A stretch of 49,618 bases of DNA, taken from positions 1 to 49,618 of the forward strand of contig NZ_JAOAKP010000008.1 in assembly GCF_026419855.1 (NCBI RefSeq), written 5' to 3'. The notes beneath the pieces were generated by a model that made no database searches, was not told the DNA's origin, and saw only the letters and a list, made by a program, of their open reading frames with translations. The stretch comes from Methanothrix sp. (lineage in GTDB: Archaea > Halobacteriota > Methanosarcinia > Methanotrichales > Methanotrichaceae). Made by a program: the position numbers and the translations under genes. Shown in pieces: positions 17,369-48,711 of this stretch; positions within the stretch are counted from its first letter, which is position 1, and each line of letters starts with the position of its first letter.

Positions 17369-17416
17369 TTGCCTGTGACATGGCAGACGATACAACTCAG
17401 GAGGTGGGGAAACAAC

Positions 17417-20400
17417 ATGTGTGTGTACAGGACCAGACCTGAAAATAAAACATTATTTAAAAGATTAATTTTTGATAGTTCTTGTCTTTATCTTTATGCA
17501 TGGCTTAAGGCCATTCATATAATTACTATCATCATAGTCGCATGTCTCTGTATCGCATTATATGTAGCTGAAGGATCATCAGCCGCAAATACCCCATCTG
17601 TTTATACAGTTGACAGTATATCTCAGGATTTATACGAACCTCTCGGAAGCAGCGAAGAGCTCACGGTCTGTGTGGAGCCGGAATCTAAAAGAACCATAGG
17701 CGATGTGGTCATCTTCTCCGTGAGGCTTGAGCTGTCCGTGGATGTCCATGAACTGACGATCAGAGATCTCCTTCCTTCAGGTCTCGATTACCTAAAATGC
17801 GAGGGGGACCTTCCCACGCCATTCCGTCCGGACAGCAGGACTCTTGTGTGGAATCTTGGGGATGAAAATAGGAATGAGATCGTCTTTAGGGTCCATGCTG
17901 TTGTTCGGAACACCATGACAAACCAGAACGGCACGGTGCTTCTGAACAGAGTTGAGGCCACATGGAAGAACTCGACGGGGACGCTCTGCTCAGCAAGCAC
18001 CACAACGCCAGTCACCATCACAGAGCCGGACATAAAGATCTCCATCAGCTCGAACAGGACGACAGTTCATGCAGGGTACATCGTCGAGCAGGTCGTGACC
18101 CTGAGCAACAGCGGATCAAGTGATGCATGTGATGTCAACCTGGCAGTGACGATTGCTGATGGGCTTGAGTTGCTGAGCGCGGATCCTGGGCATGGTGTAA
18201 ACGGGAGAAGCATAGCATGCACCTACGACAGAATTCCCGCCGGAGCTGCTGAAACCATGCGACTTGTTCTCAGGGTGAGAAACACGGTGGTATCCGGGGA
18301 GAGCCTGAGCACCGCAGCCTCTGTGACATGGACGAGCCTGCCAGGGAAGGATCCCGGTGAGCGGTGGGGTGGCGGAACAAGCCTAAACAATTATGACGAA
18401 GCTGCATCTGCGAAGGTCACGGTATCAGGAGATGTGAGCATCTCCAAGACGCCCGATACGAGCAAAAGCTGTGCCATTGGAGACTCTGTGACGTACAAGA
18501 TTCACCTGAACCTCCCGAGAGCCACTCTCAGGGATGTGGTCGTCACGGATATACTGCCATCCGGCACAACCTACGATCCATCGAGCCTTAGGACCAGTGG
18601 ATTCACTCCGAATGATATCCAGCCGCCATCTCATGATAACAGTACGCTTGTTCTCTCCTTCGGCGATCTGAACAACACAGAAGATACCGATATGGACATC
18701 TGGTACAGCGTGATCGTCGCGAACCGGAGGGAGAACAAAAACGGTGTTACCCTCTCCCCAGGATCAGCCAGGATTACATGGAAGAGCTACGATGGCTCCT
18801 CGAGGCAGAGAACTGACAGCAAGGCGGGAAGCATAGAGGTGGTGGAACCCTTGCTCGCCGTGGAGAAGCACGCTCCATCATATGCGGTTGTGGGGGATGC
18901 AGTGACGTTCACGCTGTCGATCTCTCACGATACAACGAGCAGATCTGATGCGTATGATCTCATCCTAGTGGATACCATACCCGAGGGTTCGAGACTCGCC
19001 GGTACCAATACAAGCCGGCCGATGGGCTTCGAGCAGGTAGGCAGCGATTTGGTGTGGTCCATTCAGAGGCTCGGGAGAGGGGAATCCCTCACAGTGACAT
19101 ACACGATTCTTGTGGGCAAAACAGGCAGTGTGGGAGGTGCTGCAAGGCTGTACTGGTCGAGCCGGGAGGGGGTCGACCCGAACGAGAGATCAGGACGCTG
19201 GAACGATATCGATTCATATAACAGAACCGCAGAGGCTTATGTCACTGTGGAGAACATGAGCATAAGATGTGAGCCTGATGGGCCTGTGAGGAGGAGCTTT
19301 GGGGAGGAACTCGCGATTCGCTTTTATGGTGAGCTTCCCTCTCTCAGGGATGCATGGGTTAACCTGAGTCTTCATGGCCTGGAATACAATGCATCTGGCA
19401 TCAGGCTGAGTTTCAATCCTATGGAGGGGATCTTCCGTGGGGATCAAATCTGCTGGTATCTTGGTGATATCCAGGCCATGCCTGTCGATATCTTCTTGAA
19501 AGCGATCGTCGAGGATCATGCGCCCGGGGCGATCCTGGAGCTGAGCTGGCTCTCGAATGGTGCTAGGAGATCTCTCTCGGCGGTGGCAGGCCCTGTGGAG
19601 ATCGCTGAGCCATTGCTGATCTTAACGAAAACACCTGCTCTGAGGAGTCTTGCAAGTGGTGAGACGTTGAAGTGCACTCTGAGGATCAACCACTCGCCTG
19701 AGAGCAGATACGAGGCGTGGAATGTTGTTCTGATGGAGAAAGTTCCTCCGGGCGTCGGGATACTGCCGGAGAGCGTGAGAATCTCCCCAGAGAGAGGGGA
19801 TGTTGATGTCGGAGGGGGCACAATTCTGTGGCGGATCGGCAGGCTCGGGCTCGACGAGAGCGCTTCGCTTGAGTATGATATGGTGGCACTCTCAGACGGT
19901 CGATCCGTCTCGGAGTCCACACTCACCTGGTCGAGCGCTGAGAGCGGAGGGCATAACTACACCTCATCTGCAGCATCCGAGATCATCGTCGGATCATCAT
20001 ACCTCACCGTGGATGCTCCAGAGATCGCCTGCGGCTTCGTGAACTACACAGTTCGCTACAGGAACATAGGTGATAGGGAGATACGGGGTGCTGTTCTCAG
20101 GGCAAGATACGATCCGCATCTCGTGTTCGTGTCATCAAGCCCGATGCCATGTGCCCCGGAGGGAAACATCTGGTCAGGATGTGCGCTGCCGGATGTGCTT
20201 CATCCCGGAGATGGGGGAACCATAAGAATCGTCACCAAAGCTGGAAGAGCTGCGAACGGGACAGCCGTGGAGACCTCATTTACAATGTCGTTCGAGGGGC
20301 ATGATGAGAATGTATCCGCCAGAACGCTGCTGATCTCCCCAGAGCTCTCCATCAATGCAACTGGATCTCCTCAGCGCGTTAAGAGCGGTGAAACTGTAAT

Positions 20401-22282
20401 CTACACCGTCAGATACAGAAATACGGGAACTACGAGGGTGACAAATGTAACTCTCAGAGCTCTCTTCCACTCTGACGTGCGCATCATCAGCGCGAACCCC
20501 ATTCAAGGTATACCCAATGGCGATGAGATCGTCTGGTCGGATGGCTCTCTGATGCCTGGGGATGAGAGAACCATAAGCATAAGCGCTATCGTGGAAGGGG
20601 AGGATGTGGTCAGGGTAACATTCACCCTGGAGAGCTCAGAGTCCCTGCCGGTGGTCGCAGAGGTCTCCACATATGTTCATGCTCCCAAAAAAGAGATCGC
20701 GGTCACAAAGCGGCCATCATGCACAGAGTGCAGGCGCGGCGAGACTGTGGAGTACGAGATTCGGGTTTGCAACCCGTCTGATGCAGATCTCAGTGACATC
20801 ACTGTGAAGGAGATCCCGGATCCGGCATTCGTAATCCAGAATGCAGATCCTGCACCCGGACCTGACGGCATGTGGCATATCGACCGTCTTCGCGCTGGTG
20901 AGTGCACTGCTATAAGAATCAGCGGGATTCTTCCGAGAAGCGAGATGTACTTCGATATGGCAGGGAGTGTTATGGGAAGGGGTTTCACCAGTACATACAG
21001 GGAGTGCACGTCTGGCTTCGAGGGAGCCGTGCTGCGCAACTGCGTACAGGCATTCTCCGGTAATCTCTCTGCAGGTGACTGTGTCACTGTTAGGATACAA
21101 TCTGAGAGCGGTGCAGAGCTTCGAATGAGGGGGCATGGCAGTGGATCCATCCGCTCGCAGGATGGGATGTCCATAAGCACAGAAAATCGATCCATCAGGA
21201 TCTCGAGATCCCAGGCATCAGAGAGCAGCATGTACAAAGGCGAGGTTTACAGGAGGGATGTTGTGCTGGTGTCCCCGTGGAGCGATTACTTCGAGATCTC
21301 GAACAGGGCCACTCATGGGGGCATGAAGTCGTTCGCCAGAGCTGAGAGGGATATAAGCAGCATAGCTGCCATTGCAGATTCCAACGGCACTGTGGTCTCT
21401 CTTGAGAGGAGTCTCACCGGATCCGGCAGCACTCTGACGGAGAAGATCTCGAACATCACAGGAGCGCTGAGTGCGTATGATCATCACTCCGGCACATCGA
21501 AGATATCAGTGCGGTTTGAGGAAGACGGGGAATACGGGAGCTACGTTCATTCCCATCTCGGAAACGGCACGCTTGTATCAGCCCGGAGTTATGGAGCGCT
21601 GCAGCTCCACACCTCCGGCTCCGGAAGATACATCTCAGAGGGAGTGATGAAACACGGATCCATCAAAGAGATCTTCAGAGCTGAAGGGGGCTGCTCTGGA
21701 TGGCGCTCTGGTGCCTGGATCCGAGGTGCGCAGAGCATACATGAGGAATATTCCGGATCGAGGATCGAGAAGGAGACTGTGCTCACATCCAGAGGGCTTA
21801 AGACTAACGTGAACTTCTCCGGAATGGCATTCACCGATACACACCTCATGGATTCACATCTGAGCGATACCTACATCGGAAACTACACCATCCGGAGAAG
21901 CATCAGCCTGCCTGTCTCGTACAGATACGGAATGCCTCACATCAGCATCTCCACGGACACACACATGGAGAGATCTGACGTCATGCACATCACTGTGAAA
22001 ATACAGAACGACGGGATAAGGGATCTCGCTCCTGTGCACATCACAGCTGCGGTTCCGAATGGAACGAGGGTTCTGGGCGTGTATCCGGAGCCCGAGATCA
22101 GAAACAATTTGATAGTATGGAGGCTGGATGTCCTGGAAGCCGGTGACTCTCTCGTGATAACCCTGCGGCTTGATGTGCAGGATGCCCTGCGCCGAGACAT
22201 TCTTGTCAGAGCTGCAGGTCGATTCGATAAGCAATGGGTGTATGCGATGAACAGAACATCCCCGCAGTGCTGCAGCGGCTAG
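17417..22282 (+). CDS. Giant secreted DUF11-repeat surface protein
   Basis: This 1621-residue protein starts at the ATG after the strong GGAGGTG at 17400-17406; an earlier in-frame ATG (17369) lacks such a site. A basic N-terminus and a hydrophobic stretch (about residues 32-53, HIITIIIVACLCIALYV) form a signal peptide or anchor ending near EGSSAA. About nine DUF11-type immunoglobulin-like units follow, each with G-[DE]-x-V-x-Y/F-x(5-15)-LPSG/IPEG patterns and frequently preceded by KTP or VEK. A roughly 400-residue unique Ser/Gly-rich beta region (21050-21900) precedes a last unit. Many NxS/T sites suggest glycosylation. There is no C-terminal transmembrane anchor; the end is Cys-containing (SPQCCSG). 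It probably belongs to the cell envelope, sheath or adhesion layer. Confidence 0.85.
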   Translation: MCVYRTRPENKTLFKRLIFDSSCLYLYAWLKAIHIITIIIVACLCIALYVAEGSSAANTPSVYTVDSISQDLYEPLGSSEELTVCVEPESKRTIGDVVIFSVRLELSVDVHELTIRDLLPSGLDYLKCEGDLPTPFRPDSRTLVWNLGDENRNEIVFRVHAVVRNTMTNQNGTVLLNRVEATWKNSTGTLCSASTTTPVTITEPDIKISISSNRTTVHAGYIVEQVVTLSNSGSSDACDVNLAVTIADGLELLSADPGHGVNGRSIACTYDRIPAGAAETMRLVLRVRNTVVSGESLSTAASVTWTSLPGKDPGERWGGGTSLNNYDEAASAKVTVSGDVSISKTPDTSKSCAIGDSVTYKIHLNLPRATLRDVVVTDILPSGTTYDPSSLRTSGFTPNDIQPPSHDNSTLVLSFGDLNNTEDTDMDIWYSVIVANRRENKNGVTLSPGSARITWKSYDGSSRQRTDSKAGSIEVVEPLLAVEKHAPSYAVVGDAVTFTLSISHDTTSRSDAYDLILVDTIPEGSRLAGTNTSRPMGFEQVGSDLVWSIQRLGRGESLTVTYTILVGKTGSVGGAARLYWSSREGVDPNERSGRWNDIDSYNRTAEAYVTVENMSIRCEPDGPVRRSFGEELAIRFYGELPSLRDAWVNLSLHGLEYNASGIRLSFNPMEGIFRGDQICWYLGDIQAMPVDIFLKAIVEDHAPGAILELSWLSNGARRSLSAVAGPVEIAEPLLILTKTPALRSLASGETLKCTLRINHSPESRYEAWNVVLMEKVPPGVGILPESVRISPERGDVDVGGGTILWRIGRLGLDESASLEYDMVALSDGRSVSESTLTWSSAESGGHNYTSSAASEIIVGSSYLTVDAPEIACGFVNYTVRYRNIGDREIRGAVLRARYDPHLVFVSSSPMPCAPEGNIWSGCALPDVLHPGDGGTIRIVTKAGRAANGTAVETSFTMSFEGHDENVSARTLLISPELSINATGSPQRVKSGETVIYTVRYRNTGTTRVTNVTLRALFHSDVRIISANPIQGIPNGDEIVWSDGSLMPGDERTISISAIVEGEDVVRVTFTLESSESLPVVAEVSTYVHAPKKEIAVTKRPSCTECRRGETVEYEIRVCNPSDADLSDITVKEIPDPAFVIQNADPAPGPDGMWHIDRLRAGECTAIRISGILPRSEMYFDMAGSVMGRGFTSTYRECTSGFEGAVLRNCVQAFSGNLSAGDCVTVRIQSESGAELRMRGHGSGSIRSQDGMSISTENRSIRISRSQASESSMYKGEVYRRDVVLVSPWSDYFEISNRATHGGMKSFARAERDISSIAAIADSNGTVVSLERSLTGSGSTLTEKISNITGALSAYDHHSGTSKISVRFEEDGEYGSYVHSHLGNGTLVSARSYGALQLHTSGSGRYISEGVMKHGSIKEIFRAEGGCSGWRSGAWIRGAQSIHEEYSGSRIEKETVLTSRGLKTNVNFSGMAFTDTHLMDSHLSDTYIGNYTIRRSISLPVSYRYGMPHISISTDTHMERSDVMHITVKIQNDGIRDLAPVHITAAVPNGTRVLGVYPEPEIRNNLIVWRLDVLEAGDSLVITLRLDVQDALRRDILVRAAGRFDKQWVYAMNRTSPQCCSG

Positions 22283-22283
22283 A

Positions 22284-22503
22284 AGGGTAGCGCATCAAAT
22301 TTGCTGTAAATTCAAAACAGATCTGCTGTGTTGGATAAGTCTTTAAAATCCGCAAGCAGAAGACGATTCCAGGAATGCGTGGAGAGTAGATCAGAATCAA
22401 TAGCTAGAGACATTATCACAAAAGGTTATCCAACACAGCAAAACAGATCGGTATCCATCAAAGCAGCTTGAGAGAAATATTACAGCAAATTCTGCACACT
22501 GCC
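22284..22503. repeat. Palindromic repeat split by a family 3 insertion
   Basis: The arms GGGTAGCGCATCAAATTTGCTGTAA (from 22285) and TTACAGCAAATTCTGC...GCC (to 22503) are inverted repeats sharing AATTTGCTGTAA. Removing the 117-bp family 3 element and one duplication leaves an approximately 94-bp palindrome between the surface-protein and endoQ genes, possibly a bidirectional terminator or an older mobile repeat. The 19-mer GCGCATCAAATTTGCTGTA recurs at 48579-48597 next to a family 4 element. Confidence 0.6.
22324..22440 (+). repeat. Family 3 MITE-like element, copy 1, with 9-bp target duplication
   Basis: This 117-bp element has perfect 15-bp terminal inverted repeats (TGCTGTGTTGGATAA...TTATCCAACACAGCA). 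It is flanked by exact AAACAGATC at 22315-22323 and 22441-22449. It is about 92% identical by eye to the copy at 42146-42262. It is nested in an older palindrome. No coding capacity. Confidence 0.92.
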
Positions 22504-22504
22504 G

Positions 22505-23710
22505 CTAGAAGTCCAGAAGAGATCTCTGAGATGGTGTCTTAGATCGGACTCCAGGCGGGGGAAGGGAAATCCTCCCGTACCTTCCGCCCCCACCTGGCGT
22601 CACCACAACATCTCCTGATCTGAACGCCCTTATTGCCCTTACAACCCTCTCATCCGTGTTCAGCTCAGATATCTCAGTGTGCAGGAGCACCTCTATCTCG
22701 GTCCTCTCAGATACAAGCTCGCTCCATATCTTTCTCACGCCTGCTGTGAATACACTCTTGTGGCCGAGGGCCATCGCGATTATCTCAGCCAGCGGGATTA
22801 TGTGGATGTACGGTGGCCTGTGATCCGGATGCACCGGCTGCGGCAGATCAGCCAGAAGCTCCACCCTGTCTCTTACACCGAGCTTGATCGATCCGCCGCA
22901 TCCACAACGTCCCAGCTGCTCGTCCATCTCTTCCATCGTGTACTGCCTGTAGCATCTCGTGCATGCGGTTCTGTTGTACTTCCCCTCCTCGGGGTAGAAT
23001 CCGACGTTGAGAAGGGGTCTGCGTCCGGATCTGCGCTCTATCGCGAGCCTGATATCTTTAAAGGTGATCTCCCTGAGATCAAACTGGTTGAACTCCCTTC
23101 CGAGCTTGTTAGACCATGGGGAGTGGCCGTCTGAATTCGATAAAAAAGTCTTATCCCTCAGCTCGCTTATTCGATCCGCGTAGTCTGAGTCAGCGCTGAG
23201 GCCGAGCTCTATGAAAGAAACATCATCAGCTCGATCTCCGTAACATTCTTTAAGGGACCTGTAATGGGCAAAGATCCCTGTCCAGGGCGTGAACGCATGG
23301 CTCGGCCCTATAATGCAATCCGCCTCGATGCACGCATCCGCGATCTCAACTCCATTCAAGAGTACTCTTGGCCTGCCGTCAGTGTCCATGTTGCTCGAGC
23401 TCTTCAGAAAGATCTCCCTCAGCTCCTCAGCCTTTGAGAGCTCCGGAATGAGAATCAAATGGTGAACGCCCTTCGAATCCTCAACCTCGGCTGTCACGAC
23501 GAATCCGGTCGTGCCGTTATGCCAGAGAATCCCGTCCCTTTCCGGAAGCCTTCTGAGATTCTCAAGCCATTCCGGGTGGAAAGCGTCGCCCGTGCCAACG
23601 ATGTGTATGCCCTTTTTGCGCGCCTCAGCCGCGATGGTGTCCAGATCCATCATCTCAGATGTGGCAGCTGAGTACTTTGAGTGGATGTGGAGATCAGCAT
23701 TCACATTCAT
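22505..23710 (-). CDS. Endonuclease Q, PHP-domain DNA repair nuclease
   Basis: EndoQ nicks DNA 5' of deaminated bases (uracil, hypoxanthine, xanthine) and abasic sites, a repair route of some archaea. The 401-residue protein opens with the PHP metal motif DLHIHSKYS (6-14), then GTGDAFHPEW (39-48), GPSHAFTPW (135-143) and SNSDGHSPW (191-199), supplying His/Asp metal ligands. A zinc ribbon with C250, C253, C269 and C271 follows, as in the characterised family. It is the only gene in its unit; AT-rich CTTAAAATATAAAT upstream of the ATG suggests a nearly leaderless transcript. A repair nuclease for heat-driven deamination would fit a thermophile. Confidence 0.88.
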   Translation of the reverse strand: MNVNADLHIHSKYSAATSEMMDLDTIAAEARKKGIHIVGTGDAFHPEWLENLRRLPERDGILWHNGTTGFVVTAEVEDSKGVHHLILIPELSKAEELREIFLKSSSNMDTDGRPRVLLNGVEIADACIEADCIIGPSHAFTPWTGIFAHYRSLKECYGDRADDVSFIELGLSADSDYADRISELRDKTFLSNSDGHSPWSNKLGREFNQFDLREITFKDIRLAIERRSGRRPLLNVGFYPEEGKYNRTACTRCYRQYTMEEMDEQLGRCGCGGSIKLGVRDRVELLADLPQPVHPDHRPPYIHIIPLAEIIAMALGHKSVFTAGVRKIWSELVSERTEIEVLLHTEISELNTDERVVRAIRAFRSGDVVVTPGGGGRYGRISLPPPGVRSKTPSQRSLLDF

Positions 23711-42145: not shown

Positions 42146-42262
42146 CGCTGTGTTGGATAAGTCTTTAAAATCCACAAGCAGAAGACGATTCCAGGAATGC
42201 GTGGAGAGTAGATCGGAATCGATATCTTGAGGCGTTATCTCAAAAGGTTATCCAACACAGCA
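42146..42262 (+). repeat. Family 3 MITE-like element, copy 2, with perfect 8-bp target duplication
   Basis: The 117-bp copy has ends CGCTGTGTTGGATAA/TTATCCAACACAGCA and is flanked by exact TCGATGGC at 42138-42145 and 42263-42270. It has the same length as copy 1 and about 92% identity by eye, most differences near the right end. It lies upstream of the dehydroquinate synthase gene. Confidence 0.93.
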
Positions 42263-48541: not shown

Positions 48542-48594
48542 AGAGCGATGGCTTCAAGCCCGAGACTCTCGCGGGCAGCGCATCAAATTTGCTG

Positions 48595-48711
48595 TATAGT
48601 ATTCCGCATAAGTTGATATAATATCGTATATTACATAAAATCGTGTATGAAGTGCGATATGTCCAGCAAATTTTAAATTAGCTTATATGAAGTGACGCAA
48701 AGGACTGTATA
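48595..48711 (-). repeat. Family 4 AT-rich element, copy 2
   Basis: The 117-bp element, inverted relative to 10373-10487, is about 90% identical by eye, with imperfect terminal inverted repeats beginning TATA. It is preceded by GCGCATCAAATTTGCTGTA (48579-48597), the same 19-mer found at the palindrome near 22289. No clear target duplication is visible. Confidence 0.75.

Follow-up and report, generated by a model that had tools for sequence, protein, structure and literature searches.

In a contig of the archaeon Methanothrix sp., a short repeat designated family 3 lies within what appears to be an older palindrome between two convergent genes, and this arrangement raises the question of how one repeat came to be lodged inside the other. 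The window considered here is the whole stretch of 49,618 nucleotides (contig C136) of a 1.9-Mb draft assembly in 147 contigs (the own genome, G000), which was compared with five other genomes of the genus (G001 to G005); of these, G005 is complete, and G004 is the nearest relative as judged by the neighboring gene (92% identity). Contigs of the own genome carry C labels, and individual loci carry L labels. As read from the sequence, the nested unit very probably records two successive transpositions by unrelated non-autonomous elements, a MITE inside a MITE. In window coordinates, the features are:

17369 to 22282, plus strand: upstream gene, whose large product contains DUF11 repeats; it converges on the downstream gene.
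22278 to 22285, no strand: GCTAGAAG, the 8-bp target duplication of the palindromic MITE, in its left copy, including the stop codon of the upstream gene (22280 to 22282).
22286 to 22323, plus strand: left part of the palindromic MITE, with terminal repeat GGTAGCGCATCAAATTTGCTGTAAATT, ending with one copy of the 9-bp duplication AAACAGATC (22315 to 22323).
22324 to 22440, plus strand: family 3 MITE, 117 bp, with perfect 15-bp inverted ends TGCTGTGTTGGATAA.
22441 to 22503, plus strand: right copy of the 9-bp duplication (22441 to 22449), bordering family 3, followed by the right-hand remainder of the palindromic MITE (22450 to 22503).
22504 to 22511, no strand: GCTAGAAG again, as the right copy of that 8-bp duplication, including the stop codon of the convergent downstream gene (complement of 22505 to 22507).
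22505 to 23710, minus strand: downstream gene for a TIGR00375 family protein.
42146 to 42262, plus strand: second window copy of family 3, outside any palindrome, with the 8-bp duplication TCGATGGC.
48573 to 48596, plus strand: second copy of the palindrome, left arm only, truncated where a family 4 element begins.
48597 to 48707, plus strand: family 4 element of about 111 bp, with TA on either flank.

The outer palindrome, 92 bp in length, is split by the family 3 element, and the insert is flanked by the 9-bp duplication. The outer element occupies 22286 to 22503, and the whole unit, with its 8-bp duplications, 22278 to 22511. The first-pass annotation had rightly set the palindrome between two convergent genes, while the extent that it gave, 22284 to 22503, is corrected here at its left boundary.

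That annotation had also held that removal of family 3 and one copy of the 9-bp duplication restores a palindrome, and that the pairing of the arms would be coincidental if no uninterrupted palindrome existed anywhere. The arms consist of AATTTGCTGTAA at 22298 to 22309 and its exact complement at 22480 to 22491, and the rejoined sequence matches nine other places in the own genome: eight uninterrupted copies of nearly full length (85-94% identity) and one further copy at a contig start (92% identity). With up to two mismatches allowed, the arm core has 36 matches in the own genome, as against none for a reversed-pattern control. Since full-length copies stand at other loci and the control is empty, a chance match between the arms, for which no supporting point was found, is rejected as practically negligible. 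Matches to the palindrome occur in five of the six genus genomes, including the own genome and four of the five relatives, with none in G001. A phage search with the whole nested unit returned no match.

The same gene pair was located in all five relatives. In each of them the insert is absent, and its place is taken by a single GCTAGAAG (in G002) or by a close variant of it (in G001, G003, G004 and G005). The outer palindrome has thus itself transposed, as its 8-bp duplication and these empty sites demonstrate, a step that the first-pass annotation had missed. The stop codons of the two convergent genes overlap in all five relatives, as CTAG in four and as TTAG in G004, and the 8-bp duplication in the window holds the entire overlap; therefore, both window genes retain their own stop.

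The locus was very probably formed in two steps. In the first, the palindromic MITE of 92 bp, whose ends make it a candidate substrate of an IS256-family transposase, inserted into the 4-bp stop-codon overlap, and the resulting 8-bp target duplication copied the overlap, so that the stop codon was kept by both genes. In the second, the 117-bp family 3 MITE, by its ends a candidate substrate of an IS5-family transposase, inserted into the palindrome with duplication of 9 bp. Both layers are dated by their duplications, and the outer layer also by the empty sites; the nesting, the order of events and the 9-bp duplication, as originally annotated, are borne out by these duplications together with the uninterrupted copies. 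A target duplication can in this manner let an element enter a site without a spare base while neither gene is damaged.

Mobility of the palindrome is not confined to this locus. Among 24 palindrome copies (not all) submitted to the duplication test, seven carry an exact 8-bp duplication, while 2000 re-pairings of the flanks averaged 0.09 duplications and never exceeded 2 with one mismatch allowed; the other 17 copies show no duplication at up to one mismatch under the rule used. The palindrome also has the remaining characteristics of a MITE, namely terminal inverted repeats, many copies, short length and the lack of a transposase of its own, in addition to its target-site duplication and empty sites.

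A quite different origin would be that the palindrome serves the convergent genes as a REP-like or terminator-like repeat, with family 3 alone being mobile. For four copies of the palindrome, folding does give a strong hairpin (between -24.4 and -27.5 kcal/mol, without a shuffle control), and six of 14 own-genome loci were found by a crude ORF test to lie between convergent ORFs. However, the same test places four loci in divergent and two in tandem settings, the remaining two being without a call, and ORFs of 90 codons or more overlap the palindrome at three of the 14. The suggestion that the repeats accumulate in the same kind of site consequently holds only loosely. REP and REPIN sequences are not known to be flanked by a target duplication and are mobilized by a RAYT transposase; for the palindrome, 8-bp duplications were found. 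Moreover, the site is cleanly empty in all five relatives, which do without the palindrome at this locus, and the ends of the palindrome are common to IS256-family elements. A REP or terminator function is largely ruled out by the empty sites, and we regard it as very unlikely.

The link to the IS256 family comes from two relatives. In G003, an element of 1474 bp has the same 24-bp sequence at both of its ends, and a palindrome copy of that genome (L065) ends in exactly this sequence. The IS256-type transposase of the element is broken: it is split, a further small repeat interrupts it, and neither piece (144.9 and 100.7 bits) reaches the cut-off of 150 set for the whole protein (profiles NF033543 and PF00872). 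G004 contains a 1313-bp element with an open transposase frame of 389 amino acids that scores 316.8 bits against the IS256 cut-off of 150. The same ends and an IS256-type transposase therefore occur together in both genomes, in G003 in broken form. The right end of the window palindrome agrees with the G003 and G004 ends at 22 and 21 of 24 positions, and its left end at 17 and 18; for an own-genome copy, L031, the figures are 23 and 22 of 24 on the right and 18 and 17-19 of 24 on the left. By comparison, at other places in about 47 kb of the window the right-end forms reach 15-17 of 24 at most, so that the left end of the window copy, taken alone, hardly exceeds the best chance match.

No clear 8-bp duplication was seen by eye around the IS256-type elements of G003 and G004, and a search of the 147 contigs of G000 gave no PF00872 match. 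Two other transposase families were considered as partners and rejected: IS1595 (PF12762) has no match in the own genome, and IS6 (PF13610) has one G000 match (C65), with palindrome ends on both sides at none of the nine loci L096 to L104. An exact pattern search of GTDB contigs, a collection that may omit near kin of the own genome, found the palindrome's end in one record, from Methanosarcina sp. Ant1 (L095:6751-6777), as a single end with no partner end nearby, which suggests that the IS256-type element has kin beyond the genus. The small inverted-repeat element that interrupts the G003 transposase gene (L190:1250-1373) begins with CGCTCTTATCC and has TAAGGGTA on both flanks, as judged by eye.

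For family 3, the corresponding partner was found in G005. Family 3 has 40 strong matches in the own genome, the window copy included, and is present in five of the six genus genomes, with none in G003. Among 35 own-genome copies with both ends, one of which sits at a contig start without a left flank, the duplication is exact over 8 bp in 18 and over 9 bp in six. G005 carries nine identical copies of a 988-bp IS whose ends are identical to the 15 bp of family 3; six copies are bordered by an exact 8-bp duplication and one by an exact 9-bp duplication, while two have exchanged flanks. Its transposase belongs to the IS5 family (NF033579, transpos_IS5_2, 250.8 bits against a cut-off of 140; PF13737 and PF01609), so that IS5 transposase, shared ends and matching duplication length are combined in one element. 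The likeness stops at the ends, the interior of family 3 showing no resemblance to the G005 IS.

No PF01609 match was found in the 147 contigs of G000. Among the matches listed, 30 PF01609 loci include seven with paired family-3-like ends (up to three mismatches each, only L158 being exact) and none with the ends of the palindrome; a plasmid search with the IS5 transposase found, among the matches listed, only kin below 60% identity. From the elements of the relatives, we infer that IS256- and IS5-family transposases would have mobilized the two MITEs, in the own genome as well.

Two further observations concern these repeats in their genomes. The two G005 copies with exchanged flanks (L186 and L188, G005:C1:1052500-1054400 and 1272400-1274300) are identical IS5-type elements, and the 9 bp to the left of each are reverse complements of one another; this pattern marks the roughly 220 kb between the copies as inverted. 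In the own genome, contigs C55, C56, C73, C86, C94, C98 and C138 each start 55-99 bases away from a family 3 end, and the repeat seems to have broken the assembly there.

The window palindrome is one of several to have been interrupted. Of 16 own-genome loci at which both arms were located, seven contain an insert, of four kinds: family 3 in C136 (the window), C59, C85 and C125; family 4 in C63:17074; and two other inserts, of 137 bp in C103 and about 190 bp in C22, with duplications of 7 and 10 bp, respectively, as judged by eye. This count leaves out C73 (a fused mini-copy), C70 (a contig-start fragment), C63:16995 (a fragment), the half copy at 48573 of the window, and C91 and C103:10542 (74-75% identity), while C94, where a contig start adjoins an end of family 3, is entered among the uninterrupted loci and may be a further nested case.

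It is conceivable that the nested unit formed once and then moved as a composite, in which case the interrupted palindromes would represent a single event. C85 and C125 indeed have family 3 at exactly the same insertion site, with C59 one base away, and the closest family 3 relative of the C125 copy is that of C85 (98.3%), although for the C85 copy the C125 copy ties as closest with one at another place, L025. Yet the family 3 copies of C85 and C125 are in opposite orientations, those of C59 and C125, which share an orientation and lie one base apart, are merely 91.5% identical, and the window copy is at a different site, about ten bases off. Given these orientations and this divergence, the four insertions are separate events, and common descent of the interrupted palindromes from one composite appears highly improbable.

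Layering extends to family 4. All eight copies of this element found in the DNA examined have TA on both sides, and three of them lie inside palindromes (in C63, at the window copy at 48573, and at L083 in G002). The first-pass annotation had observed that an arm sequence recurs beside family 4 and took this as layered accumulation; the recurrence is longer than claimed (24 nucleotides, 23 of them identical, at 48573 to 48596), family 4 starts at a TA directly after the arm, and the layering is borne out. The right arm of this palindrome copy was not found after family 4. At L063 in G003 (reverse-complement 1280-1390), family 4 sits at a TA adjoining sequence like the end of family 3, and the layering may therefore run the other way too.

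Why palindromes are struck repeatedly may be explained by the target preference of family 3, which has T four bases before the 8-bp target and A at the mirrored place. A target matrix was built from 29 sites at which family 3 lies outside palindromes, in the own genome and in G004; by this matrix, three of the four insertions into palindromes rank among the best 0.3, 0.7 and 1.7% of positions in the window, and a matrix from 14 nine-bp sites places the window site in the top 0.13%. The rule is nevertheless loose, since some of the 29 training sites rank poorly on leave-one-out (median top 2.2% of positions). We propose that insertions recur because an AT-rich, non-coding palindrome fits this preference and because hits there are harmless.

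Alternatively, family 3 and other elements might actively recognize the palindrome, for example as a cruciform, in the way that some bacterial IS recognize REPs. The seven interruptions by four kinds of insert at 16 loci speak for such recognition, as does the excess of family 3 hits: four were observed against 0.26 expected (P 1.5e-4) from 40 copies and 16 palindromes of 92 bp, with 12% of the genome taken as available, the non-coding share in the expectation (12 or 20%) being an assumed value. Weighting by the target matrix, however, raises the expectation to 1.2 and P to 0.036, and the attraction of the palindrome under the matrix is not clearly higher than that of dinucleotide shuffles of the same sequence (P 0.15 and 0.18). 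Furthermore, family 3 sits in other dispersed repeats too: at least five clear and two weak cases among 34 own copies, besides the four palindromes, and at least two clear and one weak among 20 copies in G004. These counts are lower bounds, with flanks compared only with the loci examined and the window, and they omit matches of L024, L025 and L027 (orthologous, uncertain or self).

Most of the excess is covered by AT-rich, harmless DNA and the target rule, given the assumed available share, and the remainder may be chance or structure. Active recognition therefore seems unlikely, and we infer that tolerance and target preference lie behind the recurrence. Equally doubtful is the wider proposition that the palindromic MITEs of the genus are specific landing pads whose inverted-repeat structure, beyond composition and harmlessness, attracts several unrelated transposases; were it true, the spread of one family would build targets for the next.

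Both layers resemble known kinds of element. As in IS256-derived MITEs, the palindrome shares 24-bp ends with transposase elements of two genus genomes (24 of 24 within G003), has 8-bp target duplications and shows no coding capacity; unlike them, it consists mostly of inverted repeat over its 92 bp, and its partner was not found in the own assembly. Family 3 is similarly comparable to IS5-derived MITEs in its 15-bp ends, identical to those of the G005 IS, and in the 8- or 9-bp duplications of both, but differs in its unrelated interior and in a partner not found in the own assembly. Archaeal MITEs recovered by de novo searches are likewise short and have little beyond their ends in common with IS, and the accessible portion of that work, which lists families, does not describe nesting of the present kind (PMC3852290). 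Another study, in its accessible text, reports insertions into bacterial REPs by IS elements that belong to five families, including IS5 and IS256 (PMC1525189); there, as here, mobile elements repeatedly enter dispersed intergenic palindromes, whereas in the present archaeon host and guest are both MITEs, and preference and tolerance account for most of the insertions. A general account of MITEs (PMC3072357, in part) and a list of archaeal MITE reports, in whose accessible text the word "nested" is absent (PMC10969869), complete this background. Among titles and abstract openings on Methanothrix or Methanosaeta and on nested or IS256-linked MITEs, a sample outside which most subscription journals lie, this case was not found (PMC2246112 was examined in part).

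The nesting is thus real and of an ordinary kind, a well-dated example and not a new mechanism. It is an unusually complete case: intact copies and the empty sites of five relatives are available, the duplications are nested, and each layer has a likely partner transposon. The window also contains, at 17 to 1309, tandem repeats spaced mostly 102 bases apart, with nine overlapping copies of a 198-nucleotide reference, of which the other eight are 60-77% identical to the reference.
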